Source: Acarospora socialis (taxonomy: Eukaryota > Ascomycota > Lecanoromycetes > Acarosporales > Acarosporaceae). From it: a stretch of DNA of 64,000 nucleotides. The translations under genes were made by a program, and so were the position numbers. The stretch spans positions 1,506,818-1,570,817 of the forward strand of contig JAMYGW020000011.1 of assembly GCA_025617375.2 (NCBI GenBank). The letters run 5' to 3'. The notes under the pieces were generated by a model. That model was not told where the DNA came from. It saw only the letters and a program-made list of their open reading frames with translations, and searched no databases. Below, piece by piece: positions 47,020 to 64,000 of the stretch (position 1 is the stretch's first letter; the number at the start of each line of letters is the position of its first letter).

Positions 47020-50000
47020 ATGTCTGGCCCCCATCAGCAACACCGACCATTTCCCTCCAGCCCTCGATTTGAGGACTCAACTTCGGAAGACGACCTTGAC
47101 CTGGAGGAGCTAGACCCTAAGACGGCGTCAACGTACTTGTCACGGTTTGACCGGAACGACAACGGCGTTGTCCTCACTACAGAAGAGACAGGCGATGTCA
47201 TCGCGTTGCGTAATATTCGCACGGTCAGATCAGGAGAGCTAGGAGATAGACCTCGAAGATATGGAAACCTCGGAGGGCGACGGGGCGAACAAGATCAAGA
47301 TACACAGGGTTTGCTCGGATACGATGGCGAGGACCACATACATGATGCAACATATCTTCCCAAGAAGGTAGATGACGGCCCGTTTGTGTACCCTACAACT
47401 GCGCGCAAAGGGCGGAAGAAGCACAATGGTGGATATAGATCGCGTTTAGGCTCGACGCTTCGACTTCCAAGTTTCAGGTCAGCTGCTTCAGGAGAGTGTG
47501 TGCCGGAGCATGTTGAGCAGAACAGTGAGGAGGAGCATTATCCCACTGCGGCCCGTCACGTCCTTGTTGGGCAACTACAGTCTTCCCGGTTCCCTCCCAA
47601 CTCTGTCTCGAACGCCAAATATACGCCCTGGAGCTTTCTGCCACGCACGCTTTACAAAGAGTTCTCTTTCTTCTTCAACATGTACTTTTTACTCGTTGCG
47701 TTATCTCAGATTATACCCGCGCTACGGATTGGTTACTTGTCCACGTACGTTGCACCACTTGTGTTTGTGTTAGCTATCACACTTGGAAAGGAGGCGGCGG
47801 ATGATGTTGCTCGGCGTAGGAGAGATGCAGAGTCAAACGCCGAGGCTTATACAGTACTACAATTTCATGGATCCCAAGATGGCCCTCGGAGTAGGGGTGG
47901 ACTTCGGCGCGGTATGCTTCAGCCCATCATTTCTAGGCGCAAAGCGACAATAGATGAGGTCGGGGATCGCTTGCCTGCAATACAGGAGGAAGAAGAAAAC
48001 TTGATCGGGCACAATGAACCAAAGGCTCTATCAGCCGGCGTTCTTGAGGTCTCCAAGAAGTCCAGAGACCTTAAGGTGGGGGACGTCCTGAAGCTGGGGA
48101 GAAACCAGAGGGTTCCCGCCGATGTGGTGGTTCTCAAAAGTTACACGGCGGAAGCCGCTTCAAGCACAGCTTCAGAGGACAAGGCTCCACGAGCAGAGCC
48201 TGAGATTCTACTCGATCCAGCCTTGGACATATCAGTTGAGGAGACACTAAACACTCACGACGACTCCAGTTTAGCGATACCCAACGGTGAAAACGCCCCA
48301 ACGCCTGATGCAACAGCCATTGGGGAAGCCTTCATACGCACAGATCAGTTGGATGGAGAGACAGATTGGAAACTACGCGTTGCCTCCCCGCTGTCACAAG
48401 CACTTGAGATCTCCGCACTTACGAGACTTAAGGTTGTTGCGGGTAAACCAGATAAAAAGGTCAACGAGTTTGTTGGTACTATCGAGCTTCGGGCAGTAGT
48501 CGGCATGACACAGAAGCAACAAAGTACCAGAGGCCAGAAGACACGAGAAGTGGGTGTTGAAACTCCCGGCGATGGGGACATTACGAGTCCTGCTGCCGAA
48601 TCTGCACCGCTCACAATCGATAACACTGCGTGGGCAAACACTGTCCTAGCGTCGGCTTGCACGACGCTGGCAGTCGTGGTCTATACTGGTCCGCAGACAA
48701 GACAAGCACTCTCCACTTCTCCGTCGCGGTCCAAGACCGGCCTCCTCGACTCTGAGATCAACAATCTAACCAAGATATTGTGTGCCTTAACCCTGGCTCT
48801 CTCCGTCATTCTGGTGGCGCTAGAAGGCATTGAAAAACGGGAAAGCCAGAAATGGTACGTTGCAATGACGCGTTTCCTAATCTTGTTCTCCACGATCATA
48901 CCAATCAGTCTACGGGTCAATCTTGACATGGGTAAAACGGTCTATGCTCGTTTTATCGAACGTGACCCAGATATACCTGGGGCAGTGGTAAGGACTAGCA
49001 CCATTCCAGAAGAACTGGGAAGGGTGGAATATCTACTAAGTGATAAGACGGGTACTCTTACTCAGAATGGTATGCAAGGTACATCACCTCCATCACGGGT
49101 TACTGATTTAGGCGCAGACATGGAATTGAAGAAGATACATGTGGGAACCGTGTCGTACGCAAACGAAGCAATGGATGAGGTTGCGACATATATCCGACAA
49201 GCCTTGTCCGTCCTCTCATCCTCCAGTGTCACTCAACCGCACCAACTCCTAACACCCTCGTCAGCGTACAATACTCCATCAGCAAACGCTCCGGCAACTC
49301 GGACTCGGAGAGAAATCGGGTCACGCGTACGAGACTTGGTCCTTGCGCTTGCGCTCTGTCACAATGTCACGCCCACACTCGACGAGGAGAATGGCCGAAT
49401 GGTGACAACCTACCAAGCATCGTCGCCCGATGAGATTGCGATTATTCGTTGGACTGAAAGCGTAGGCCTCCGCCTCATTCATCGCGACCGACATAACATT
49501 ACACTCTCCTCTGTAGACAATGGACGCATCGTCGTACGAGTGCGTATCCTGCATGTGTTTCCGTTCACCTCCGAGACCAAGCGGATGGGGATAATCGTAC
49601 AATTCTTCCGAGGCTCCGAGACTACGCGATTTATCAGCGAAGATGCGGGGGAGATCTGGTTCTACCAAAAAGGCGCAGATACTGTCATGTCATCAATAGT
49701 TGCAGCCAACGATTGGCTCGAAGAGGAGACCGCTAATATGGCCCGAGAGGGTCTCCGCACACTTGTCGTAGGCAGGAAGAAGCTCTCTGTTGCTCTCTAT
49801 CGGGAATTCTCAGCAGCCTATCTAGAAGCCTCAATGGCTTTGCAAGGCCGCGACTCCGCAATGGCGAAAGCTCTGAAGTACTATCTGGAAAGGGACCTTG
49901 AGCTCCTCGGTGTGACCGGTGTGGAGGATAAACTTCAACACGACATCAAGCCTTCATTAGAGCTGTTACGTAACGCTGGGATAAAGATTTGGATGTTGAC

Positions 50001-51165
50001 AGGCGATAAAGTCGAGACTGCTCGCTGTGTTGCCGTTAGTGCCAAGCTGGTCGCTAGAGGGCAGTACATACATACAATAGCAGGCTGTAAGTACGCGTGT
50101 CCTGTAAGTGCATCAGTACTGACGATCAGCTTAGTGAAGAAAAAGGATCTCGCCCAAGACTCCCTAGAGTTGCTTCGTAACAAGACTGACGCGTGTCTAC
50201 TCATCGACGGCGAGTCGCTCTCATTGATGCTAACCCACTTCCGGGATACCTTCATCTCTTTGGCCGTCCTTCTGCCTGCTGTTATTGCATGTCGCTGTTC
50301 TCCAACGCAGAAGGCTGACGTCGCCCTACTCATTCGGCGCCACACCAAAAAACGCGTCTGCTGTATTGGCGATGGCGGCAACGATGTTTCGATGATCCAA
50401 GCTGCCGACGTTGGCGTGGGCATTGTCGGAAAAGAAGGCCGCCAGGCGAGTCTGGCTGCTGATTTCTCCATCACTCAGTTCTGCCACCTTACCAAATTAC
50501 TCGTCTGGCACGGACGCAACAGCTACAAGAGGTCTGCTAAGTTAGCGCAATTCATCATCCACAGGGGACTCATTATCAGCGTCTGTCAGACCATGTTTAG
50601 CATCGCTACGCAGTTCGAGCCGCATGCCTTGTATCGGGATTGGCTTTTGGTCGGTTACGCAACCGTCTACACCATGGCTCCTGTGTTTTCGCTGGTTCTC
50701 GATAAAGATGTGGATGAAGAGCTTGCGAACATGTATCCTGAACTATACAAAGAGCTCACCAGCGGCCAATCGTTGAGTTACCGGACCTTCTTCATTTGGG
50801 TTCTTGTATCAACGTACCAGGGTGGTGTAATCCAAGGTTTCTCCCAGATCCTGGTAGCAGTTGAGGGCGCTCGGATGGTTTCGGTCAGCTTCACAGTTCT
50901 CGTCATCAACGAGCTCATCATGGTGGCGTTTGAGATTACGACTTGGCATCCAGTTATGATTTTCTCGCTCGTCGGTACGGCGATGCTTTATTTTGGCAGC
51001 ATTGCTTTCCTCGAAGGATACTTTGAACTGGCCTACATTGTAACCTGGGCATTTGTGTGGCGCGTTGCAGCGATTTCGGCCATTTCACTGATTCCCCCAT
51101 ATGCAGCGAAGGTTCTCAGGCGTACCTTGAAACCACCAAGCTATAGAAAGGTTCGAGCCTTGTAG
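47020..51165 (+). CDS. NEO1: P4-type ATPase (phospholipid flippase), Neo1 type
   Basis: The frame is open from the ATG at 47020 to the stop at 51165 (1381 codons), but two 48-nt in-frame introns are likely (49070-49117, GTATGC...GCAG; 50087-50134, GTAAGT...TTAG). Removing them restores TLTQN-DMELKK and HTIAG-LKKKD and gives 1349 residues. P4 signatures: QLDGETDWKLR (actuator), LLSDKTGTLTQN with the phosphorylated Asp near 675, and GDGGNDVSMIQAADVGVGI. The N-terminal cytosolic part (about 150 residues) leads to FPPNSVSNAKYTPWSFLP and the first membrane helices. Neo1 works without a Cdc50 partner at Golgi and endosomes and maintains PE/PS asymmetry. Confidence 0.95.
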   Translation: MSGPHQQHRPFPSSPRFEDSTSEDDLDLEELDPKTASTYLSRFDRNDNGVVLTTEETGDVIALRNIRTVRSGELGDRPRRYGNLGGRRGEQDQDTQGLLGYDGEDHIHDATYLPKKVDDGPFVYPTTARKGRKKHNGGYRSRLGSTLRLPSFRSAASGECVPEHVEQNSEEEHYPTAARHVLVGQLQSSRFPPNSVSNAKYTPWSFLPRTLYKEFSFFFNMYFLLVALSQIIPALRIGYLSTYVAPLVFVLAITLGKEAADDVARRRRDAESNAEAYTVLQFHGSQDGPRSRGGLRRGMLQPIISRRKATIDEVGDRLPAIQEEEENLIGHNEPKALSAGVLEVSKKSRDLKVGDVLKLGRNQRVPADVVVLKSYTAEAASSTASEDKAPRAEPEILLDPALDISVEETLNTHDDSSLAIPNGENAPTPDATAIGEAFIRTDQLDGETDWKLRVASPLSQALEISALTRLKVVAGKPDKKVNEFVGTIELRAVVGMTQKQQSTRGQKTREVGVETPGDGDITSPAAESAPLTIDNTAWANTVLASACTTLAVVVYTGPQTRQALSTSPSRSKTGLLDSEINNLTKILCALTLALSVILVALEGIEKRESQKWYVAMTRFLILFSTIIPISLRVNLDMGKTVYARFIERDPDIPGAVVRTSTIPEELGRVEYLLSDKTGTLTQNGMQGTSPPSRVTDLGADMELKKIHVGTVSYANEAMDEVATYIRQALSVLSSSSVTQPHQLLTPSSAYNTPSANAPATRTRREIGSRVRDLVLALALCHNVTPTLDEENGRMVTTYQASSPDEIAIIRWTESVGLRLIHRDRHNITLSSVDNGRIVVRVRILHVFPFTSETKRMGIIVQFFRGSETTRFISEDAGEIWFYQKGADTVMSSIVAANDWLEEETANMAREGLRTLVVGRKKLSVALYREFSAAYLEASMALQGRDSAMAKALKYYLERDLELLGVTGVEDKLQHDIKPSLELLRNAGIKIWMLTGDKVETARCVAVSAKLVARGQYIHTIAGCKYACPVSASVLTISLVKKKDLAQDSLELLRNKTDACLLIDGESLSLMLTHFRDTFISLAVLLPAVIACRCSPTQKADVALLIRRHTKKRVCCIGDGGNDVSMIQAADVGVGIVGKEGRQASLAADFSITQFCHLTKLLVWHGRNSYKRSAKLAQFIIHRGLIISVCQTMFSIATQFEPHALYRDWLLVGYATVYTMAPVFSLVLDKDVDEELANMYPELYKELTSGQSLSYRTFFIWVLVSTYQGGVIQGFSQILVAVEGARMVSVSFTVLVINELIMVAFEITTWHPVMIFSLVGTAMLYFGSIAFLEGYFELAYIVTWAFVWRVAAISAISLIPPYAAKVLRRTLKPPSYRKVRAL
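49070..49117 (+). other. Probable in-frame intron of NEO1
   Basis: 48 nt without a stop codon; GTATGC donor, TTACTGAT branch, GCAG acceptor. It interrupts the invariant TLTQN-x-MELKK run just after the phosphorylation site. Confidence 0.8.
50087..50134 (+). other. Probable in-frame intron of NEO1
   Basis: 48 nt without a stop codon; GTAAGT donor, TACTGAC branch, TTAG acceptor. Splicing joins HTIAG to LKKKDLAQDS as expected for the family. Confidence 0.8.
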
Positions 51166-51314
51166 TCTAGGATAATACATCTAAGTTAGTAGGCAAACGT
51201 TGTCTCTCACAGCAGGCTAAGTCTTATGGTTCGAACCTTTATCCAGATCCATGAGCAAGATTTGACCAACTTTGAGAAAGTGACATCTTTGATTCAATTG
51301 CGATCAGCGAAGTA

Positions 51315-51412
51315 CAGTGCCGGAAAAAACTCTGTGCTGTTCACATCATAGACAAAAAAACCACCACTTTTTCTAGTAAATCCTGCCACCCCCATATTCA
51401 CTCACAAAATCA
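51315..51412 (+). repeat. Left terminal inverted repeat
   Basis: It pairs with 54295-54395 over about 95 bp. This arm keeps CC and CCGG sites that are TC or CAG in the right arm. Confidence 0.85.
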
Positions 51413-51947
51413 TCACAAAACAAAGTTCATGACCTTCACAACTGCACCCCATACATCAGCAATGTCTCACCCATTGTCTGAGTATACTAAAGATCTCATC
51501 AACAATTAATTGTTCTGTGAAATGTCAATCTCATTGATTCATGAGAACACAAAAATATCTATTTAACAAATTCAAAACATGCAGAGCAATCAGCAGATAT
51601 AAGAATCTTTTAAGATTTTCAGATTTAGAAAAAATGATTATTTTAGAATTCTGATCTCAGCAATGAAAAAGATCTTTGTTGAATATCTTGAGAAAAGATT
51701 CTGAACATATTGTGATGAGATAAGATGATTTCTTTGAGATGAATTTGAAATCAATGTCAATCTCAGAACATTGTTTAATGTTCTAAAGAGAATGAAATAT
51801 ATATGAAAGATGATAAGAATTTTTGTTTGATGATTCAATAATTAATATTTGTAATTTTAATAGCTACAATGAAAAGCTGTTCAACAAGATCATGAATTAT
51901 GTGTAAAATAACTTGTATAATTAGTCAATTGAACTGCAGATCAGCTT

Positions 51948-52500
51948 GTCTTTGTTGATGAGTCAGCTACAAATAAATGAAATAAAAATTAAAAGTTTAA
52001 CTGAGTTCATCAAGAGATGAGAATCTCAATGTTGATCTCATTAGAACAGAGTGAATAATGAAGTGTATTGTTAACATACACTGTCAAAAAATACATAACA
52101 TAAATAATTAGACAGAGCTCTATAACAGAAGTCTTATTTAACTTCTTTATACAAAATGAGATTCTGCTGCAGTACAGTTCTTTTTTAAGATCAAAATCTG
52201 TTTTTATTATAAATAATACATCTATTCATTATTTCAAGATATGTCTTCTGATTTCTCTGTATTTATTTACTAACAAATTACTGAAAATTAATCAATATAT
52301 GCACTGAAACTAATGTAGAGCTTGTTTTTCTTTCTTTTTACTTTCTCAACTACAATTTCATTGAACAGTTCTTCATCACTCTCAAACAGTGAATACAGTG
52401 ACATGAAAATCTTGCAAAGAAGTATAAAAATAATTTTGAAGAATTTATATGACTGACAATGAAAAAATATAACAAGAACAAACATTCAGAGATACATTTT
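51948..52500 (+). pseudogene. Broken DDE transposase
   Basis: Catalytic-region relics of an IS630-type transposase occur in at least two frames: first Asp kept (VDES), second Asp position changed to Asn (INNTSIH), third acidic residue kept (FIEQFF), then a helical tail (HENLAKKYK, FEEFI). Several in-frame stops break it. The usual N-terminal DNA-binding part would lie in 51500-51940 but is not readable. Confidence 0.7.
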
Positions 52501-54294
52501 TGAAGTGTATATATAGAAATGAAATTAACAGTCACTGACAATGATTATAACTATGACTATGAGTTGTAGATAGATTTAAAAGATAAAAATATATAAATTT
52601 AATATTATTTAAGACTCTAGAAACTCTGCAACTGTTGTTAACTGCATTAATGAGTTAACAGCATCACTTCTTTTTCTTATAATTTTCATATTCTTCATAG
52701 TTTTTCTCTTTTTATTTCACTCTTTAACTCTTTTCTTTAACTGTTTTTCTAGATTTAAAGAAATATTCAAGTTTCTTCAGTCTTAAATCTCTGCTTTTCT
52801 TATCTGTTTTATATTATACAGCTAATTTCACAACTGTTTGTATGCATTCTTCAGCAATATTGAGTACTCTGATATTTGCTTCTTAAATCACTTTATATAC
52901 TGATATAAAAGCTTCATGAGCTTTGTATTGTCACTGCTGATAAAGTTACTTTTTTTCTTATGTGAAACAAATCATTATAAAAATAAGTAATGCAGAGACT
53001 GCAAAACAAACTTTAAAAAAGAATTCAGAGAATTCAGAGATAGTTAAAGTGAGAATGAATGAGAAAAATGCATTGAATAATGTAGAGAATATTGTGAAAA
53101 AGATGAAGAAGATGAAGCAGTATATAAATGTTGATAAAGTTGCAGATATGATGATGAAAACAGATAAAGTAAAGAAAACATGTACAGTAATGAGTACTGT
53201 CAGAGACTTTGCATGAACATTGATGATATTGATGATATTAACAACATTAATGATATTTATTTCATATGAACATGAATAGATGCAGAGAACAAAAATGATG
53301 TGAAAAATGAAGTAGACTGTGAAACAGACTTGAAGATTGAAGAAAAAAGTCAATTAAGTATGTAAAGCATTTGAAGAAAAAAGCTTTCAATGATGACATC
53401 ATCATTGCTAATAATTTTATTTCAGACAATGAAATGATTAGAATTCAGAACATGATGTTTTTCTTTTAGCATTAAGTATTTTTTATTTTTATTTTTGCAC
53501 TTCACATTTTCACAATGTCATCAATGAATCAGCTGTTTCACATAATTGTTTAACTTCAATTTCAGTTTTTTTTGTTTCTTCATAACTGTCTGATGTTTGT
53601 CTATAGTTATTTTCTAAGTAAAATTAGTATAAAAGTTCTACAGAAAGCAATTGACTTATTTTTTTCTTTTAAGAGAAGACTTCTTTTTTTGAGAACTCTG
53701 ACTCATTGTTGTTTGTGAAAAAGTCTTAAACAGATTTTGAAACTATTCTCTGTGTAGATTTAATATCTATAAATATTTAAATATGTTTTTGTGTTAGATC
53801 AGAAGTATAGTCTTTAAATTGATTTATCTCTCAACATTTTTTAAATTCAAGATCATAATAATTTGTTTTTTAACTTCACTGAATAATAGTTCTGTTCTGA
53901 TCTGCTGTTATTGCACTTGATATTTCTTTAATTAAGTTTTTTTCTTCTATCTGATCTGCTCATTTGTCAAAAATATTGAATAGTTGAAATTGATGAGATC
54001 AATCATTTTGATCTTAAAATACTGATTTATCTTATTCAGAAAAACAGTTCAATGAATAAGAAACATAACTGAGATCTTAGATGAAATTTTCTTCATTAAA
54101 TTAACAGTATTAATGTTCTTAAATTCATCAACATCAATGTTCTCAGCATTCTTGAATAATAAAGACAAAAAAGAACATTTAAGATCTTTCAGAGTCAATT
54201 TTGATGAAGTTTTTGTCTTAAAATTTTTCTTTTTACTCTTCAATATTGAAACTGTTGTTATAGAACTCAGAAGATGTCAATTGATCTTGTGAAT

Positions 54295-54395
54295 GCATAA
54301 TTTTGTGAATGAATACAGAAGTGACAGAATTTACTAGAAAAAGTGATGATTTTTTTGTCTATGATGTGAATGACACAGAGTTTTTTCTGACACTG
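54295..54395 (-). repeat. Right terminal inverted repeat
   Basis: Reverse complement of the left arm with about a dozen differences, nearly all C to T in the reverse-complemented reading. A TA follows it. Confidence 0.85.
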
Positions 54396-54532
54396 TATCT
54401 TAAATGACAAACTATGAGTCAAAACTGTGTTGCACTAGAATTTCTCACTTTACACAACTGATGTAATCAAACAATTCTTATCAGTACTGAAAAGCACATA
54501 TTCAGTACTCAAAAGATTTAACAACAAGACAG

Positions 54533-55793
54533 TCACATAAGCAAAGACAGATTCAGTTTCTGAGAATCATCAGTACAACACAAATCTCTATCATAATTTC
54601 TGCACTTATCACTGCAACAATTCTCATCTTTATTGTAAAACTCTGTCAGGTAACATATGTTAGTTTGATTTGATTTAAAAGTTTTGTGAAAGTGAAAAGT
54701 ATATTAATAAGATTTTCAGCTCATATGAGCAGAAGAACTTAACTGATATAAAGAAGAAGAGAGATCAGAAAAATAAAGAGAAAGTACTCACTGTCTGCAT
54801 GTAAGCAATATGATTTTTTCTGAGAGTTGTAAGTACAATAAGAATAATCTTCAACTCAAGATGACTTCTTGCACTCATCACTGCAACAAGTCTTATCTTC
54901 ATAGCATCTCACTGTCATAACATATGTTAGTTTGATTTGGTTTATAAGCTCTGTGAAGTGAGAAGTATGTTGATAAGATTTTCAGCTCATATGAGTGAAA
55001 GAACTTAACTGATATAAAGAAGAAAAAAGATCAAAAGAATGAAGAGAAAGTACTCACAGTCTTTATGTAAGCAATCTTGTGATTTTCTCAGAAGACTTGC
55101 AAGATGACAGTGTGCTATTAAATACTGCATGTTAGTTCAATTTCATTTATAGAGTATAAGTCTTGAGAGAGTGAGCAGAATTCTCAAGAAGAATAGACTA
55201 TATGAATTATATCATTATAATGACAGACTATGAATGAGAACTGTGTAGTATGATTCTCTTGATCTCTCACATGTGAATGTAGTCAAGTTTTGCTGATATT
55301 AATTACAATAGTTAGATCATAAATCTCAGTGACAAAAACCACTGCAACAATCAGAGTCATGATCACAACTATTTATCAGACAACATTTGTTAGTGCAGCT
55401 TGACTTATAAGTCTTGCTACAGCTTGCAGAAACTTTCAATAAGATTTCAGATCATATTGAGTTGAATGAGTGAAAGAACTGTGATGATTTGAAGAAAAAG
55501 AGTATGAACAAAAAGATACTCACTGCCAAATTTTAGACAATCTTGTGGTTTCATTAGAAGACTCACAAGAATTGCATGAGTCTGTTTGAGACTTTGACAA
55601 GCATCTTTTAACTCTATTGTATTGTTTGATTAGTAGCATTACATGCATTAACTTAAGAGAGAGACAGGACCATATCTTGGGCTGGAGCCTCAATGAAAGA
55701 GAGAACCTCAACAATCACATTGAAGTCTGCCACAAGTACAGCACAAGCAAAGCTCACAAGAACAGTTGATAGAACCAACTTGGAGAAGTGCAT
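54533..55793 (-). pseudogene. Relic of a cysteine-rich secreted protein gene with duplicated modules
   Basis: At 55793 an ATG opens a signal peptide (MHFSKLVLSTVLVSFACAVL) followed by about 26 residues and a TAA at 55655. Downstream on the same strand lie three related cysteine modules: CDHDSDCCSGFCH at 55330-55368, CYEDKTCCSDEC at about 54871-54910, and a third with ENCCSDKC at about 54601-54637. Each is preceded by an intron-like stretch ending CTAAC...CAG or TAG and followed by a GTGAGTA donor-like sequence (at about 55060, 54790 and 55520). The last exon ends in TGA near 54533. In-frame stops in several modules indicate a pseudogene. The CC-x3-C spacing resembles small disulfide-rich secreted proteins; no function can be assigned. 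Confidence 0.5.
54598..55110. repeat. Imperfect tandem repeat, period about 267 bp
   Basis: Two clear copies begin near 54598 and 54866; the shared TAACATATGTTAGTTTGATT lies at 54651 and 54918. More diverged relatives occur at about 55120-55300 and 55330-55560, and the segment 54401-54480 resembles 55215-55290. Each unit carries one exon-like and one intron-like part of the gene relic. Confidence 0.75.
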
Positions 55794-58446
55794 GGTTGAT
55801 GAAGGTGATTGTTGAAGGATGGGATCTCAGTGTGATGTTGTTATTGTTAGTTGTTAAAGAGTTGAGACTGATGATCTGGTTTGGAATTGAACAAGGGAAA
55901 CTGAGTTTCTTATAGATGAATGATGTCAGGCAACATTCAGAAAGCATGAGCAACGCAGAAGCTGATTGCCTTGATGTCACACATCTTCACTCAAACATAA
56001 GCTAGATAACACATATAAGCCAAAGATTACAGTAAGAGCTGGAAGCTGCAGAAGGCTAGAAAACAAGACAATGCATAGTTCATGATGATTTGATGAGTTT
56101 GCTGTAGTGTTGTACAAACCATTGAGTGCATTATGAGCATGTGCCTAGAAACTGCTCAATGGTAAACTGTGTACTGACCATGCCCTGTGATTGCAACAAT
56201 TAACTTGAAGCTGCGAAAAATCATGGTACAAAATGTCTGTTGAGAAAGTCCCAGAGAATGAACCATGAATTGAGGCCATGTACGTAAGCTTGATGCTGTG
56301 GAACACTGCATGATAGGACTGTACACCGCTTCAATGATTGGACGCCAGAGAACTATGATTGTCAAGTGCATAGTCTAGAGCCACATATGCGGGCTGAAAG
56401 TTCATGTCTTGGAACAATTCAGAAATGTGAACACCTGCTTCATCCGTTTGTTACACATTTTCCGCTGTTGTGTATCTAGTGCTCAAATCTTAAGCAGAGC
56501 AGCATGACTTGTCTCATTTTGCAAAGCAACAAACAAGAACGAGGGAAGCAACGTCAAATTGGGAATGCCAGCTAAAGCTGAAGCTGAATGTTATACAGTG
56601 AGCATATGGATCTGGGCAATCCAATTACAGCGACCTCATACCTAGAGCGCCCACGCGCTACCTTAGCACCTTAGATACTCCGGATGCAGCAAGGTGCATC
56701 TTGCCTGTTTGGTTCTTCAGCCTCTGAATCATGAGGCAATATTGAGGCATGGCACGGCGAGTAGCAGAAGCGGGGCTGCACCACAATGTTGGACAAGTGA
56801 TCTGGTGTACCTTCGCTTTTCGAGATCTTACCTCATGGGTTACCGGGACAAGCCAAAGATCATGCATGGATGGTAGTAAAGCGTTCCTAGAAGATCATGA
56901 ACTCATGCGGGGAAGCGTCAAGTACCCATCAGGATGCGAGATGTAGACGAATACTTTGGTAAGGAGACTTGAGAAGACAAATGCCCGGAACGCCTTGTTC
57001 CACCCAGTACAGAGAAGTGCGAGTGTTGAAAGTGCACTTAGACCATTTGCCGTCCGTGTCCGGCTGACTAGGTAAATAGGTAGGGAGGTAGCAATGGTGA
57101 GCGGGGGCGCGGACAAACGAGCTATTAGGCCCTTATTGAATAATCCTTGAAAGAGAGGTGAAGACTGCGGAAACATTTGTTAGATAGAGGAGCCACCTAC
57201 TTAACCTTACCGGTAGAGACTTGAGCGGTCGGTGCGGCTCGATAGGGATAGGGTCACGGTGGGCGGTTACCGCACTAGAAAACCAAGCGTCCGCTCATGT
57301 GCCTCGCCTCGTACCAAGCCTTGCGAGTGGAGGTATGCTGCGTCAGTCTGACGATAAATATATCAATAAGGAACCAAGAAATGCTCTGGTTCATCATCAA
57401 ACCAGAGTTCTGTGTGTGCTGCGATGTCTCAATATACTGTTCCCCGCTACCTGGTCCTGTGCCGGGTCCACGATCGGCTCCGTGTCGATCTTAATCTATG
57501 CATTGTGGCTTCATGTCTCACACGACTGTGTTACTCCTGCTGCACCTCGCGCTCTGCATATGGCTGTGTTGCGCTTCCAATTCCAATCCCTTTTCTGTTG
57601 GTCGAGGCTCTCAGCCATGTATTGACACTGGGGTCTTGCAAGAGCCAAAGTTCTTCGACTTTGACGAAGCTCGTCATAGAATTAACACTACGTTTACTAA
57701 TCACACAGATTCTGCGGGAGCAGCTGTGCAAGCGATCTGATACTACAACTGGCAGCAATGGGTGTGACGTCACCCTTCAGATGGTGATGAAAGCAGCTTT
57801 CGCGCCTAGTTGGGCAAGAACGTTGGTTGGAGTGGGTGCTACACAATCGCAAGTCCGATGAGCGAAACGAGAAACATTCTAAGGATGGCATTCGCAAGGA
57901 ACGAGAAGTCAATATAGAATAAGTTCTCCCAGTGGCGTTGATACTAAGACGGGTTGAGATGAGGGGTTATGGGTGCGGCAAGGAGGGAGCGGTTGAGTCT
58001 TGTGAACGGCGAAGGCATAGTAAGCGGCTCTCTGTCATTGTGAGGTCATTAGGTTGAAAATAGTTTTCAATTCCAGGTCACTTCCCGAGCTCCCTCTGCC
58101 TCCACATAGTTTCGTTCTGCACCATTAGATGTGTGCTTGCTCAGAGTTGATATCGATGCCATCTTTCTCCCTTTATCTTCTCCATGAAGCTCGCTTGAAC
58201 TGCTTGACTTCTATGATTTGTTGATACACATTTTACAAGAATGCCTTCATCTGCTTGTTATGTCCCGCAAGAACAAAGATGACCTAACACTAGATCGTCG
58301 CCCAAATTATCCAAGGAAATTTCCTGTTGACAATTGGGGACACTATAGTTGGATATGAATTGGAGACTATCTTATCGATGTCGTCTACCACTGGCTTGTC
58401 CTGCATCAAGCTGATAGTCGCGTCGTCGCCTTAGGGAGCCCTTTGG
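55794..58446. other. Subtelomeric intergenic stretch, no confident gene
   Basis: CpG-poor to about 56300, then normal composition. Open frames on either strand up to about 150 codons (for instance around 57221-57861) show no domain or coherent splicing. It may include degenerated sequence, but nothing identifiable. Confidence 0.4.
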
Positions 58447-59504: not shown

Positions 59505-61823
59505 ATGTCTCTCTCTTTTACTGTGAATGCTGGACCACTTTCTCAGATTGGGCTTGAGATTGCGTCCCTGAGCACGGCATATCAACTTGCTACGGGCGCC
59601 TATGGGTGGTTCAAAGCGATTGAAAGATCTAAATCCCTGACGGAGCTTCTGTCAGTCAGTGGGGGGGAATTGGTTGCTACCAGCTCCTTCAACTTCGATA
59701 TTTATAAAGACATCCGTATGCCCCATACCATGATGCAAGGCGTTGTGGTCCAAGAGCGAAGGATGCAGTGCACTGAGCTTCCGAGAGGCTCCACCGCGGT
59801 TCCAAATCACCCTGGCATCGCCTGCTTACGAGCTTTGACGGCTGGTCTCTTATGTCTCTATAGACCTGACGCGACCGCAGAGATATTACAGGATCTGATT
59901 CCTTATGCGCTTATACAGCTCAATCAAGAGGACACGGTCATCGAAATAGAGGGTGCACTCCTGGCCAGTCTCCGACATTGGGTCTCTGCGGTTGCGCTTG
60001 AAGAGGACAGTGATAAGTTTCGAAAATACATGCTTGAAAGAATAATGCTACAGCAATCGAGGCTGACGGGAATGGCGTTTGATGACAACATGGGCATGGA
60101 CTACACCGATATTAATGAGATCCCATACGTTATCGGGGTTTTGAGATGGATCCTTACGCCGTTGCACAAACGGGATCTCAAGCAGTACCCTACTCGATCC
60201 TTGAAAGTATGGATCACGGCTTCAATCATGCAAACCCTTGGCTTCGAGATCCAAGCAGCACCTGTTGTGGTTCATAGCTTTCATGATTATGACGACAAAA
60301 TGCGTGCCTCGTGTCGATTTGGAGAGGCACCGGACGTCTTTCTCGTTGTGATAAACGATGCAGAGACCGACCCAATGCCGGTAAATCATGTACCGGGTGC
60401 GGATGACTCTCCAAGACCACAGGTCACCATGATCAGAGGCATTCCTTGGATCGCGTTCAGGCATCTTCGGGGATCTTCTGAGGAGGTTGATACTCAATAT
60501 CTCGTTGATGTTTGGAAATATTCTTTCAAGAGTGCCAAGGCGTGCTTTCGAGGCATTGTCACCTATCGTCAGGATATCCACCTTGAGATAGCAGAGTCCG
60601 AACTTGATGGGGTATCCGAACATCACAAATCTTTGATTTCTGATTTCTCACCGGAGCTTGAACGTATCTGTGGGCCTGCCATGCGCCAATTCGTTCCAAT
60701 GTCATCTCACAGCCCAGGTTGGAACCTGTCCGAGCTGAGAAAGCAAATGCGCCTACTTCGGACGGAACAAGAGCTTTTCCTCACAAGCTCGCCTTGCAGG
60801 GGTAATTGCTATGTGTTGTATGCGATTATTTGTGGTGCACTTTATGGATTGTGCAGTAACGCCTGCTTTGACAACGGCGACGTACTCAGCGAGGATTCAG
60901 AAGTCGCTTTCATACCCGACATTCTATACGAGTCTGGCGGTGAGAGACTGAGAGGCTGGGCAAGAACAGTTGGTCATTCCCTGAGAGGCCATCAAGCCCT
61001 TAGTCAATGGCGTGATCTGTTATTCGAGATGTTTCTAGGAAAAGACACCGAGTCTGGCACTTTGAAAACTTTTCAAAATTCACAGAAGACCAACTACATC
61101 AACCAGCAGAATCCATACAGAGATCGTCTTTTGTTAGGCGCCCAGGCAAATGGGCTTGTTGCTGTGTCAGAAATGCTAATAGCTACAACCATGCGGGTCG
61201 AATCATTCTGCTATTTCCACATCAAACGCGGGCAAATACTCAACTTGCCCCTTACAGAAGATCAATACATCCAAGCATCTTCCTACATAGAGCCCGCTCT
61301 CACTCTTGACCTAGACCCTGAGCCCAAAAACAGCACCCTCTACCGATTTGAGGCTGACGACACCCATTCCACGATGCGAATTGACGTCGAACCATCCTGG
61401 GAAGGGGATCCCAGAACCGTAGTGTTCCGGGTGAGGTTGCGAGGTGTGCCCATCGCCTCCCTCAACATCTCCGCGTTTCTGGACCGATTGTCTCATGACA
61501 CCGTGCCGTGCAGATGCCCGGAACCCTCATGGGAAGTTATAGTGCCCTTTAGCGAGCGATGGCAGCTTGTCACCTTACATCAGCTGCAGCGAACGAGATT
61601 CAAAGGGATGTCATTGCGAAGGGTTGATGTCAATGATGCAGACACCAGAATCCTGATCGACGCTTCACAGAGCGTCGCAGCTACCATTTACGCTGTGTGC
61701 ATCCTGCATGTTAGGCAACTGTCTGTCGCGCTGGAATGCCTAGATTGTGCTTATAAGCATGCTTTGAGAAATGTGCAGAACACAGGCGTTGCAGTCATCA
61801 TTCCATTTCGAGAAAACTCATAG
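59505..61823 (+). CDS. Large protein of unknown function, subtelomeric
   Basis: Single exon, 772 residues, ATG at 59505, stop at 61823, no frame damage. The N-terminus (MSLSFTVNAGPLSQIGLEIASLSTAYQLATGAYGWF) is moderately hydrophobic. The body is mostly soluble in character, with helical stretches (GIACLRALTAGLLCLYRPDA, YIEPALTLDLDPEPK) and hydrophobic patches near residues 445-460 (CYVLYAIICGALYGLC) and near the end (AATIYAVCILHVRQLSVALE). No catalytic motif or domain is recognised. The composition matches euchromatic genes, including normal CpG. I believe related long unknown proteins occur in other filamentous fungi, often near chromosome ends, but cannot verify it here. Confidence 0.75.
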   Translation: MSLSFTVNAGPLSQIGLEIASLSTAYQLATGAYGWFKAIERSKSLTELLSVSGGELVATSSFNFDIYKDIRMPHTMMQGVVVQERRMQCTELPRGSTAVPNHPGIACLRALTAGLLCLYRPDATAEILQDLIPYALIQLNQEDTVIEIEGALLASLRHWVSAVALEEDSDKFRKYMLERIMLQQSRLTGMAFDDNMGMDYTDINEIPYVIGVLRWILTPLHKRDLKQYPTRSLKVWITASIMQTLGFEIQAAPVVVHSFHDYDDKMRASCRFGEAPDVFLVVINDAETDPMPVNHVPGADDSPRPQVTMIRGIPWIAFRHLRGSSEEVDTQYLVDVWKYSFKSAKACFRGIVTYRQDIHLEIAESELDGVSEHHKSLISDFSPELERICGPAMRQFVPMSSHSPGWNLSELRKQMRLLRTEQELFLTSSPCRGNCYVLYAIICGALYGLCSNACFDNGDVLSEDSEVAFIPDILYESGGERLRGWARTVGHSLRGHQALSQWRDLLFEMFLGKDTESGTLKTFQNSQKTNYINQQNPYRDRLLLGAQANGLVAVSEMLIATTMRVESFCYFHIKRGQILNLPLTEDQYIQASSYIEPALTLDLDPEPKNSTLYRFEADDTHSTMRIDVEPSWEGDPRTVVFRVRLRGVPIASLNISAFLDRLSHDTVPCRCPEPSWEVIVPFSERWQLVTLHQLQRTRFKGMSLRRVDVNDADTRILIDASQSVAATIYAVCILHVRQLSVALECLDCAYKHALRNVQNTGVAVIIPFRENS

Positions 61824-61849
61824 TGTTGTCTATTGCCCCACCAAGCAAC

Positions 61850-63857
61850 TGTGCTCATCACACCCTGAGAACTACATGAATTCTAAAGCTTGATATTGTT
61901 TTCTTTTGTTGTCAGAGAAGACAGAAGTCATATCATGCTGTGATGATCTCACTCTGAAAAATACTTCAATATTGACAGCAAGATCATATAAAATATCACT
62001 AAACAAGTGATGTACTTCTTAGCAAACTGTTAGAGTGTAAATCTAAGCTATGTGATTCAAGTAATAATATATAAGTGATAGTTATGAATGTAAGTGAGTA
62101 AAGAAGTGTAATTACTATATATTGTAATAAAGTGAAAGCATGTAACAGAAAGAGATTTAGTGTATTACAGAGTTTAAGTTTTAACATCATAGTGTTACAT
62201 TCTAGACCTAAGATTTCTCAAGTATGTTAAAGTTAGAGATTTGTGCTTGTGAATATAACAATTTGTGTAATATAATGAGTAAACTAGTAAATAGTAACTC
62301 TTTATTACTTAATAGCTAAGTAAGTTGAATATTGAGAGATAAAAGAATACTCATGCTATACTGCTGACTAACTGCCTATCTAGTAAAACATACATTATTA
62401 ACTTGATCATGATCAACATGAATTGTAGAGATTGTCTATTCACATACTCTGTCATGCAGACTATATGAATAATGAACAATTTCTGACATTAGTTTCAACT
62501 AAGACTATGAAAGCAGTTAGAACATCACACTTCTTAACACTTTCACTCAGTGATGCTGCATCTATTGACTTTCATTAACAGCAAATTTCAATTGTTCAAC
62601 AAAGCACTCAAAGATTCATCTAAATAAGAACTTGATTAATTCATCAGTCATCATGTCTTGACTGAGCACAAAGTTCACATCAATCTGATTTCACTTGTGC
62701 AAATTACAGATATGATAATAGACAATATCAATGTGTTTCAATCACTCATACACATGTGCATTCTTAATCAAAATCAAGACAGTCTGATTGTTTCTCTTAA
62801 GCTGAAGAAATGAGACTGCTCAATGAGCTTCATTCTTTTTGATGTTCACACAATATGAATTGTCTTCAAGATACTTACTCATATTCATGTCTCACAGCAT
62901 CTGTATAAGTTAGACTTCAGTCTTTGCACATATTGACATGATCATGTATTCAGTCTCTGTAATTAAGATAACAATAGACTTCTGTTTTTAACTTATTTAT
63001 GACACTAATTTATCTTTAAACATGTACACATGTTTCAGAATTGACTTTCAATCTTGCTTGTTTGATGCATAGTTAAAGTCAGAGTATTCAAGCATGACTT
63101 GACTCTCACTGAGTCTGTACACAATGTTAAAATTAATGATTGATTTTACATATCACAACAGTTTCTTAAATACATGTTCATAATGCTTTGCAGAATCATT
63201 AAAATACTGACTTAGTTGATTTAGAACAAAGATGATGTTTAATCAAGTATGAATTGCTGCATACATCAGACTTTCAATTGCATGTTAATACTGTCTTTAA
63301 TTTATTCTTTGATCAGCTAAGTCAGCAAGATGAAGAGCATCATATTTATTGAGTGAGATTGTCATAATTTTGTGCTTATCAAATCACATATGAAGATCTC
63401 TCAGCATCTTGTTTACATAATGAGTCTGATTTAGATGTAGAATTCTTCTCTTGTGATTGTGTGTGACTTGTATGTCAAGAATTTTCTGTGTTTTCTTCAA
63501 GTTCTTAACTTTGAACATCTTCACAAGAACTTTCTTAAATTAAAGAACATATGTCAGACTTACTGAAACTACAATCATATTGTTTACATAGAGAAGCAGC
63601 ATGATTCTTTTGATGCTGTTGATGAGAAAACATAAGTCAGTATTGTTTTGATGAAAGTTTAGCTTGTGCAGATCAGTGATGCATTATTCATATCAGTCTC
63701 ATATAATTTGCTTCAGATCATAGAAACTACACAATATACACAGTACACAGTCAGATGCAACTTGAACTTCAGAAGAAACTGTTATGTAGATGATCTTTTT
63801 AGGAAAGAATTCTGTGAAGATGTTGTTGATGTTTATTTGATAACATTTAAGGTTTTC
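61850..63857 (-). mobile_element. Ty1/copia retrotransposon fragment, truncated by the telomere
   Basis: On the minus strand the C-terminal part of a copia polyprotein is readable through many stops. Reverse transcriptase motifs start next to the telomere: a VNNAFTE-like run (now INNIFTE) at about 63820, LKQ of the LYGLKQ motif near 63690, and the YVDD box, now YVNN, at 63573-63593. Then come ESLMYAAIHT at about 63255-63290 and RNase H blocks, with TETEYM for TEAEYM at about 62930-62960. The frame ends near 62565. The upstream parts (gag, protease, integrase) are missing where the telomere begins. No CpG is present from 61811 onwards. Confidence 0.85.
62028..62260 (-). repeat. Possible 3' LTR of the copia fragment
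   Basis: The segment has inverted TGTTA...TAACA ends, as copia LTRs have, and lies downstream of the RNase H region. The second LTR is lost with the truncation, so this cannot be confirmed, and no clear polypurine tract precedes it. Confidence 0.3.
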
Positions 63858-64000
63858 TAGGGTTAGGGTTAGGGTTAGGGTTAGGGTTAGGGTTAGGGTT
63901 AGGGTTAGGGTTAGGGTTAGGGTTAGGGTTAGGGTTAGGGTTAGGGTTAGGGTTAGGGTTAGGGTTAGGGTTAGGGTTAGGGTTAGGGTTAGGGTTAGGG
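63858..64000 (+). repeat. Telomere repeat (TTAGGG)n
   Basis: About 24 uninterrupted copies run to the window end. The first unit is joined to the copia fragment at TTTTC-TAGGG with no subtelomeric spacer. Confidence 0.99.

Follow-up and report, generated by a model that had tools for sequence, protein, structure and literature searches.

A repeat block depleted of CpG and CpC in Acarospora socialis suggests RIP-like hypermutation with a reversed sequence context

Composition of the depleted block and its transposon

A stretch of 64,000 nucleotides from the lichen fungus Acarospora socialis (contig JAMYGW020000011.1, positions 1,506,818 to 1,570,817), hereafter called the window, contains a decayed DNA transposon lying in a block almost devoid of C followed by G or C, which probably results from hypermutation resembling repeat-induced point mutation (RIP) but with another sequence preference. 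Below, CpS stands for C before G or C (S being G or C) and CpW for C before A or T. The features of the block and of its surroundings are listed in Table 1.

The original prediction had claimed that CG is absent from positions 51323 to 55953, that CC and GG are nearly absent between about 51480 and 55300, and that CA, CT, TG, AG and GC stay common there. The counts agree on all three points. Between 51323 and 55953, flanked by CGs at 51321 and 55954, no CG was found vs. 94.9 expected from base composition, together with 21 CC (84.6 expected) and 18 GG (106.4 expected). In the inner part, from 51480 to 55300, where the G+C content is 26.9%, the observed and expected numbers are 0 vs. 59.8 for CC, 0 vs. 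68.8 for CG and 2 vs. 79.1 for GG, while the observed/expected ratios of the other dinucleotides reach 0.94 (GC), 1.44 (CA), 1.46 (TG), 1.30 (CT) and 1.27 (AG). This depletion is far beyond chance, since 1000 shuffles of the inner part never gave fewer than 41 CC, 46 CG and 56 GG. CpS loss is almost complete up to 55338 and then fades rightward, CG being nearly absent as far as 56213. Strand-specific action at the left edge, where 14 CC and no GG remain, was considered and rejected, as this stretch is GG-poor in all nine aligned copies of the transposon and is simply less mutated.

As for the RIP indices that the original prediction had put forward as a check, the two classical ones give no indication of RIP here: TpA/ApT is 0.72 vs. 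0.71 in positions 1–51000, and (CpA+TpG)/(ApC+GpT) is 1.55 vs. 1.19. The indices built on CpS are close to zero, with (CpC+GpG)/(TpC+GpA) at 0.004 vs. 0.874 and CpG/(TpG+CpA) at 0.000 vs. 0.453.

Table 1. Features of the depleted block and of the end of the window (positions in the window)
Feature	Position	Strand	Evidence or remark
CpG-free tract	51323..55953	.	CG positions, dinucleotide counts
Tract without CC and with two GG (54649, 54939)	51472..55338	.	
Left edge ramp: CpG gone, 14 CC remain, no GG	51323..51471	.	
Right edge ramp: CpG nearly absent (a single one, 55954), CC and GG reappear	55339..56213	.	no other genome copy found
Copy of a Tc1/mariner-like DNA transposon with heavy C-to-T mutation of either strand	51313..54397	.	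inverted repeats, TA ends, further copies
Local repeat with ~266-bp spacing, CpS-depleted	54557..55600	.	repeat families D1, D2, D5, D7; no further genome copy found
Second block depleted of CpG, CpC and GpG; it holds the remnant of a Copia-type reverse transcriptase, extending to 63851	61865..63800	minus (remnant)	
Telomere repeat TTAGGG, chromosome end	63863..64000	+	window end is contig end

Judged by its ends (inverted repeats and a TA target duplication), the element is of the Tc1/mariner kind. Its inverted repeat arms (51313–51413 and 54297–54397, ~100 bp) are 85% complementary, and TACAGT stands at nine of nine left ends and ACTGTA at all five right ends read. Eight further copies with matching ends, ~82–87% identical, were found in the genome, so that the alignment holds nine copies including that of the window; minority-strand matches (cross-hits between inverted repeats) were left out of the transition and transversion counts. 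The transposase is too decayed to classify: an HTH_33 match is weak (E 0.0086, below the cut-off), none of the 19 genome matches to DDE_3 lies in the window, and no DDE_1 locus matches the element at the DNA level.

The copies differ mainly by transitions. Among five of them (the window copy, C4, C2, C6 and C9b), transitions affect 10–14% of the sites and transversions 0.2–0.7%, as exemplified by a pair with 375 transitions and 6 transversions over 3062 sites; copy C3a is older, with 55–65 transversions relative to the other full-length copies. CG is absent from the element core in nine of nine copies. Contexts in the core were read from the six near-full copies, with the starting bases deduced from the alignment columns: the 87 presumed CpG sites appear as CA in 228 instances, TG in 213, TA in 77 and CG in none, four being gapped. 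The lightly mutated ends of the same six copies give the clearest contrast, with 54 of 126 CpC changed in the left 170 bp vs. 2 of 149 CpA and 2 of 81 CpT, and 29 of 68 CpC at the right end vs. 2 of 60 CpA and none of 40 CpT. A CHG-like rule finds no echo here, the CpA and CpT changes of the window element showing no dependence on the base at +2. The TG or CA state agrees between copies at 0.37–0.76 of the sites and most pairs look independent; as the hits differ largely between copies, most of the mutation must have arisen after transposition.

Context of the C-to-T changes in other element families

An open copy of a DDE_1 element (L023), which retains CG, CC and GG, was taken as the starting state for five sister comparisons, and both CpG and CpC are changed in all five. 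The two closest sisters are the most informative. In L026, 41 of 114 CpG cytosines (41 of 57 dinucleotides) and 61 of 220 CpC are changed vs. 3 of 274 CpA and 1 of 260 CpT (Fisher p of 7e-31 for CpC vs. CpA+CpT), for a total of 106 forward C-to-T changes, 5 reverse changes and 1 transversion. Mutation is heavier in L029, where only 1 of 57 CpG is left and 177 of 220 CpC, 30 of 274 CpA and 38 of 260 CpT are changed, amounting over 1813 aligned bp to 305 C-to-T changes, 3 reverse changes and no transversion. Two sisters are more distant and noisier: L036 (30 transversions) has changed 31 of 60 CpG, 99 of 128 CpC, 24 of 167 CpA and 33 of 164 CpT, and L033 (56 transversions) 59 of 114, 168 of 218, 69 of 273 and 80 of 259, respectively. 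The onset of mutation in L026 is abrupt, with 1 of 64 CpS sites changed in the first 300 aligned bp (L023 positions 893–1193) and 101 of 270 in the remainder.

Reverse transcriptase (RVT_1) copies behave likewise; the labels LINE-type, Gypsy and Copia given to reverse transcriptase copies are a judgement from Pfam family and match length. Among 16 RVT_1 segments of 750 bp, judged to be LINE-type, the variable sites comprise 38 of 45 CpC, 7 of 8 CpG, 8 of 130 CpA and 12 of 93 CpT, or, when only minor alleles are counted in the same contexts, 36 of 43, 5 of 6, 7 of 130 and 7 of 88. As many as 78 of the 120 pairs are free of transversions. Both strands undergo C:G to T:A transitions, which reach saturation, and the claim of the original prediction that the block inverts the classical RIP context is upheld by alignments in three families, in which CpG and CpC, and not CpA-to-TpA, are the main change. 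The open RVT_1 segment L040 (C1:2716587-2717339) is also CpG-poor, with 3 CG in 753 bp at a G+C of 0.36; its element may be adapted to the mutator or be a survivor of it.

The signature extends beyond the window. In a sample of 230,537 bases, made of the window and 31 partly overlapping loci picked near repeats and methyltransferase genes rather than at random, 244 windows of 300 bp have a GC content below 0.35. CG is missing from 238 of these, 219 contain no more than two CpS, and CA+TG never drops below 0.8 of expectation. A further 12 RVT_1 segments comprise 11 without CG and one (L066) that retains 10; among the CG-free 11, ten keep at least 2 CC+GG and six at least 10.

Stop codons carry the same imprint. 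Broken frames in 150 of the 151 RVT_1 matches, from a search that scored 150 of 435 candidates, contain 418 TGA, 60 TAA and 21 TAG (TGA making 418 of 499), and those of 17 DDE_1 matches 53 TGA, 16 TAA and 6 TAG (53 of 75). Such an excess of TGA is expected if frames break at TGG and CGA rather than at CAA and CAG, as under the CpS rule; in the 16 RVT_1 segments, TGA came from TGG in 15 cases and from CGA in five, TAA from CAA in two, and three stops had other origins. Stop-free RVT_1 copies (within the matched stretch; frames of up to 1329 aa) cluster at C1:2654838-2799451, C14:11456-85392 and C10:186970-249666, which are perhaps centromere-like regions. Two RVT_1 matches in opposite orientation ~3 kb apart, C11:926970-927722 and 930888-931640, agree in score, in frame length and in number of stops, and are perhaps an inverted duplicate.

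Order of hits, edges and candidate enzymes

The base 3' of the target C decides. CCA became TCA in 27 of 77 cases in L026 (CTA in none) and in 62 of 77 in L029, and CCT became TCT in 26 of 79 and 62 of 79, respectively; the second C was also changed in 9 (CCA) and 13 (CCT) of those L029 cases. In L029, CCG gave ten CTG and a single TTG, and in L026 three CTG and one TTG: because the first C of CCG is mostly spared once the second has changed, hits accumulate sequentially. Per cytosine, the CpG:CpC rate ratio is 2.0 in L026, 1.2 in L029 (near saturation) and 1.5 at the ends of the window element, three comparisons that cover two families and widely differing mutation loads. The CpC rate in L026 is ~30–80 times that of CpA or CpT. 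The CpC:CpW ratio goes from ~43 in L026 to ~12 in L029, the CpA and CpT share rising with the mutation load, as if the mutator turned to poorer CpW sites once the preferred ones run out; the slower C-to-T change at CpT and CpA in heavily mutated and old copies may reflect such exhaustion or a second activity.

Mutation is bound to the repeat and starts less than 50 bp from most element ends read. At the nine left ends, CG per 100 bp amounts to 3.6–3.8 at 50–200 bp outside the element and to 5.3 in the 50 bp directly outside it, drops to 2.4 within the initial 50 bp of the element and is 0 further in, and CC+GG inside falls from 14.0 at 50–100 bp to 0.2 at 200–300 bp. CG is kept in the left flanks of all nine copies and in the right flanks of four.

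A genome search with PF00145, run without regard to introns, yielded four matches in three genes. The first gene is DIM-2-like, with DUF7893, a sub-threshold BAH and a methylase domain, its best PDB match being 9bap (E 1.3e-191), presumably DIM-2 itself. The second is DNMT5-like and matches 7r76 (E 2.4e-67), deposited as Rad8, which we take to be Dnmt5. Concerning the third (L020/L022), its methylase lies in two pieces whose motifs were read by eye, and Pfam found no BAH in it; its homologues carry no RID name, the first named relative being from Pleopsidium flavum (51%).

The window is the terminal part of a 1.57-Mb contig (C11) in a genome of 31.1 Mb and 38 contigs. Its gene at 47020–51165 codes for a phospholipid-transporting ATPase, with a top-scoring relative (71% identity) in P. 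flavum, a species whose genus is classified in the Acarosporales, Lecanoromycetes. In the second depleted block, GG is absent from 61786 to 63801 and two CC are found from 61865 on; an RVT_2 match (C11:1570201-1570668) corresponds to window positions 63384–63851, and another at 63297–63539 (E 0.0015 with TGA read as W) is below the cut-off. The subtelomere (61865–64000), which holds this Copia-type remnant and has undergone the same CpS loss, gives way within ~65 bp to an unmutated TTAGGG array, to which the GG excess of positions 63001–64000 is almost wholly due. An ADPrib_exo_Tox match obtained on read-through (E 0.0058, below the cut-off) was taken as chance.

A RIP-like defence with a reversed rule

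Taken together, we consider it probable that the block is repeated DNA which a RIP-like genome defence has hypermutated under a reversed context rule, namely CpG ≥ CpC ≫ CpT, CpA. Under the proposed mechanism, C would become T if followed by G or C, somewhat more readily before G, and far more rarely before A or T, and successive hits would exhaust the CpS targets until hardly any C before G or C is left on either strand. The catalyst would be an enzyme of the cytosine-methyltransferase type, most likely RID/Masc1-type and perhaps DIM-2 on older copies, acting, as in RIP, during the sexual cycle. That RID is the acting mutator is favoured to a modest degree. A similar, measured confidence goes to a RIP-type defence in which the 3' reading of the mutator has switched from A/T to G/C, escaping CpA-based indices, possibly with DNMT5 or DIM-2 at work.

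Several observations weigh against this interpretation. The CpA preference typical of RIP was looked for and is not seen. The comparison with L025, likewise more distant and noisier (59 transversions), has 23 of 110 CpG, 39 of 214 CpC, 26 of 271 CpA and 20 of 251 CpT changed, and in the core of the window element CpA and CpT are changed at fractions of 0.20 and 0.31, a reading softer than that from the open copy since its starting bases come from alignment columns. A mild 5' effect exists at CpC in L026 (TCC 29 of 71 vs. ACC 11 of 49, GCC 13 of 54 and CCC 8 of 46). Not all mutation was independent either, TG/CA states being shared at 57 of 75 sites by C4 and C9b and at 47 of 67 by C4 and C2. 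The stretch 54400–55300 is mutated although a DNA search with 54400–56700, which includes the local repeat, returned only itself; either the process acts on this local repeat or it spreads. In the Copia-type (RVT_2) frames, the first 60 of 148 matches hold 193 TGA, 255 TAA and 18 TAG, unlike RVT_1 and DDE_1, so that CpA-type changes are common in this family, direct or on top of an earlier TGA, which we read as a probable effect of age. A single cycle of RIP leaves strand coherence. None was found in the window element, where 199 of 371 adjacent pairs are same-strand (146 of 2000 shuffles as high), nor in L026 (0.436 vs. 0.515), and in L029 it is weak (0.564 vs. 0.504; 67 of 5000 as high). Lastly, the third methyltransferase gene is assigned to the RID/Masc1 type by elimination, the other two being DIM-2-like and DNMT5-like, and no named RID was aligned to it.

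The original prediction had left the choice between one mutator preferring CpG and CpC and two successive processes. The single mutator is the simpler of the two, as the rate ratios given above are those that a single enzyme slightly favouring CpG would produce and both contexts are changed in every comparison with L023. Two processes, one specific for CpG and a separate one for CpC, might be suspected from the element edges, where CpG is lost while CC persists for 150–300 bp, and from the CG-free RVT_1 segments that keep some CC and GG; the edge pattern also follows from a mild CpG preference of one enzyme, and this option is less favoured and, in our view, quite improbable. Slow decay of repeats methylated at CpG and CpC by DNMT5 and DIM-2, with 5-methylcytosine deaminating spontaneously over long times, is unlikely too. 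Genes of both types are present; methylation with deamination has been invoked to explain CpG-type loss in fungi (PMC4352252), and transposable elements of truffles are described as methylated mainly at CpG (PMC7862722). The changes in L029 do not behave as a neutral clock would have them, the 3 reverse changes and the lack of transversions beside 305 C-to-T changes implying that the CpS rate exceeds the upper 95% limit on the rate of transversions by a factor of at least ~750, a pace beyond spontaneous deamination provided that transversions serve as a reliable clock. Moreover, maintenance methylation is not known to occur at CpC.

Systematic C-to-T miscalls at methylated CpG and CpC in repeats would also produce a context resembling that of methylation, and the present reading was made from the assembly alone. 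Such an artefact is nevertheless very improbable: CpG sites are mostly changed on one strand (TG or CA), differently from copy to copy, the share of changed CpC ranges between 28% and 80% among sisters, and L023 keeps its CG, CC and GG. Editing of element copies by a cytidine deaminase of the APOBEC/AID type could account for changes that are almost wholly C-to-T and for the mild preference for a 5' T at CpC, and some APOBEC3 enzymes favour CC. These enzymes, however, read the 5' neighbour and act on the second C, whereas in the present copies CC loses its first C (CTA never arising from CCA in L026) and the 3' base decides; DNA transposons and reverse transcriptase families are both affected, on both strands, which makes this explanation scarcely credible.

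Like RIP in Neurospora crassa, the process favoured here turns C:G into T:A on both strands, is bound to repeats and runs to saturation, in a genome with a putative RID-type gene and a DIM-2-like one. It works like RIP, and whether it is to be filed as RIP proper hinges on whether CpA preference and RID dependence define RIP. The Coccidioides genome is reportedly marked by RIP of a CpG type. The order in N. crassa, as quoted in PMC5496416, is CpA > CpT > CpG > CpC, vs. CpG ≥ CpC ≫ CpT, CpA here. In Trichoderma reesei, CpA and CpG are hit about equally, followed by CpT and then CpC (PMC5496416), and the MATE elements of Aspergillus nidulans are changed at CpG and then CpA (PMC2621366); CpG is thus a main target in both, as here, but so is CpA, with CpC least or unnamed in the accounts available. 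CpC is among the contexts lost in repeats of S. nodorum, CpA being dominant (PMC2621366), and in Monilinia RIP is of the CpA type, accompanied by some CpC-to-TpT double changes and by an effect of the second nucleotide (PMC8959702). A fungal survey of transposable elements names CpA, CpT and CpG signatures, without mention of CpC in the text available (PMC4352252). The Microbotryum signature, given as TpCpG (PMC2621366) and associated with Masc2, shares the change of CpG to TpG/CpA; Microbotryum is a basidiomycete, CpC is unnamed in what is available of the source and a Masc2-like gene is proposed (PMC4352252), whereas DIM-2-like, DNMT5-like and putative RID-type genes occur here. Closer at hand, the Lecanoromycete lichen fungus Cladonia rangiformis has strong repeat mutation and reported RID and DIM-2 homologues (PMC12542154). 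Its transposable element sequence peaks at ~16% GC, the mutation context not being stated in the available part of that paper (PMC12542154), vs. 22–32% in the CG- and CC-free DDE_1 domains here, where many CpA and CpT cytosines survive and keep the GC content higher. No report of a CpG-plus-CpC rule was found in an open library lacking most subscription journals.

A kingdom-wide study of 2025 describes RIP-like defences as sharing a CpA preference (PMC12543289, as far as available), to which the present genome would be a counter-example with the preference reversed. It opens to experiment the question of which part of RID, or of its partners, recognizes the nucleotide following the target C. 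Given values of 0.72 and 1.55 in a saturated block, surveys that rely on such indices would probably score this genome as RIP-free. TGA-rich pseudogenes (TGG to TGA, CGA to TGA) could also pass for a genetic code in which TGA is read as Trp. If true, a CpS rule would go unseen by CpA-based indices and be easily missed in kingdom-wide surveys.

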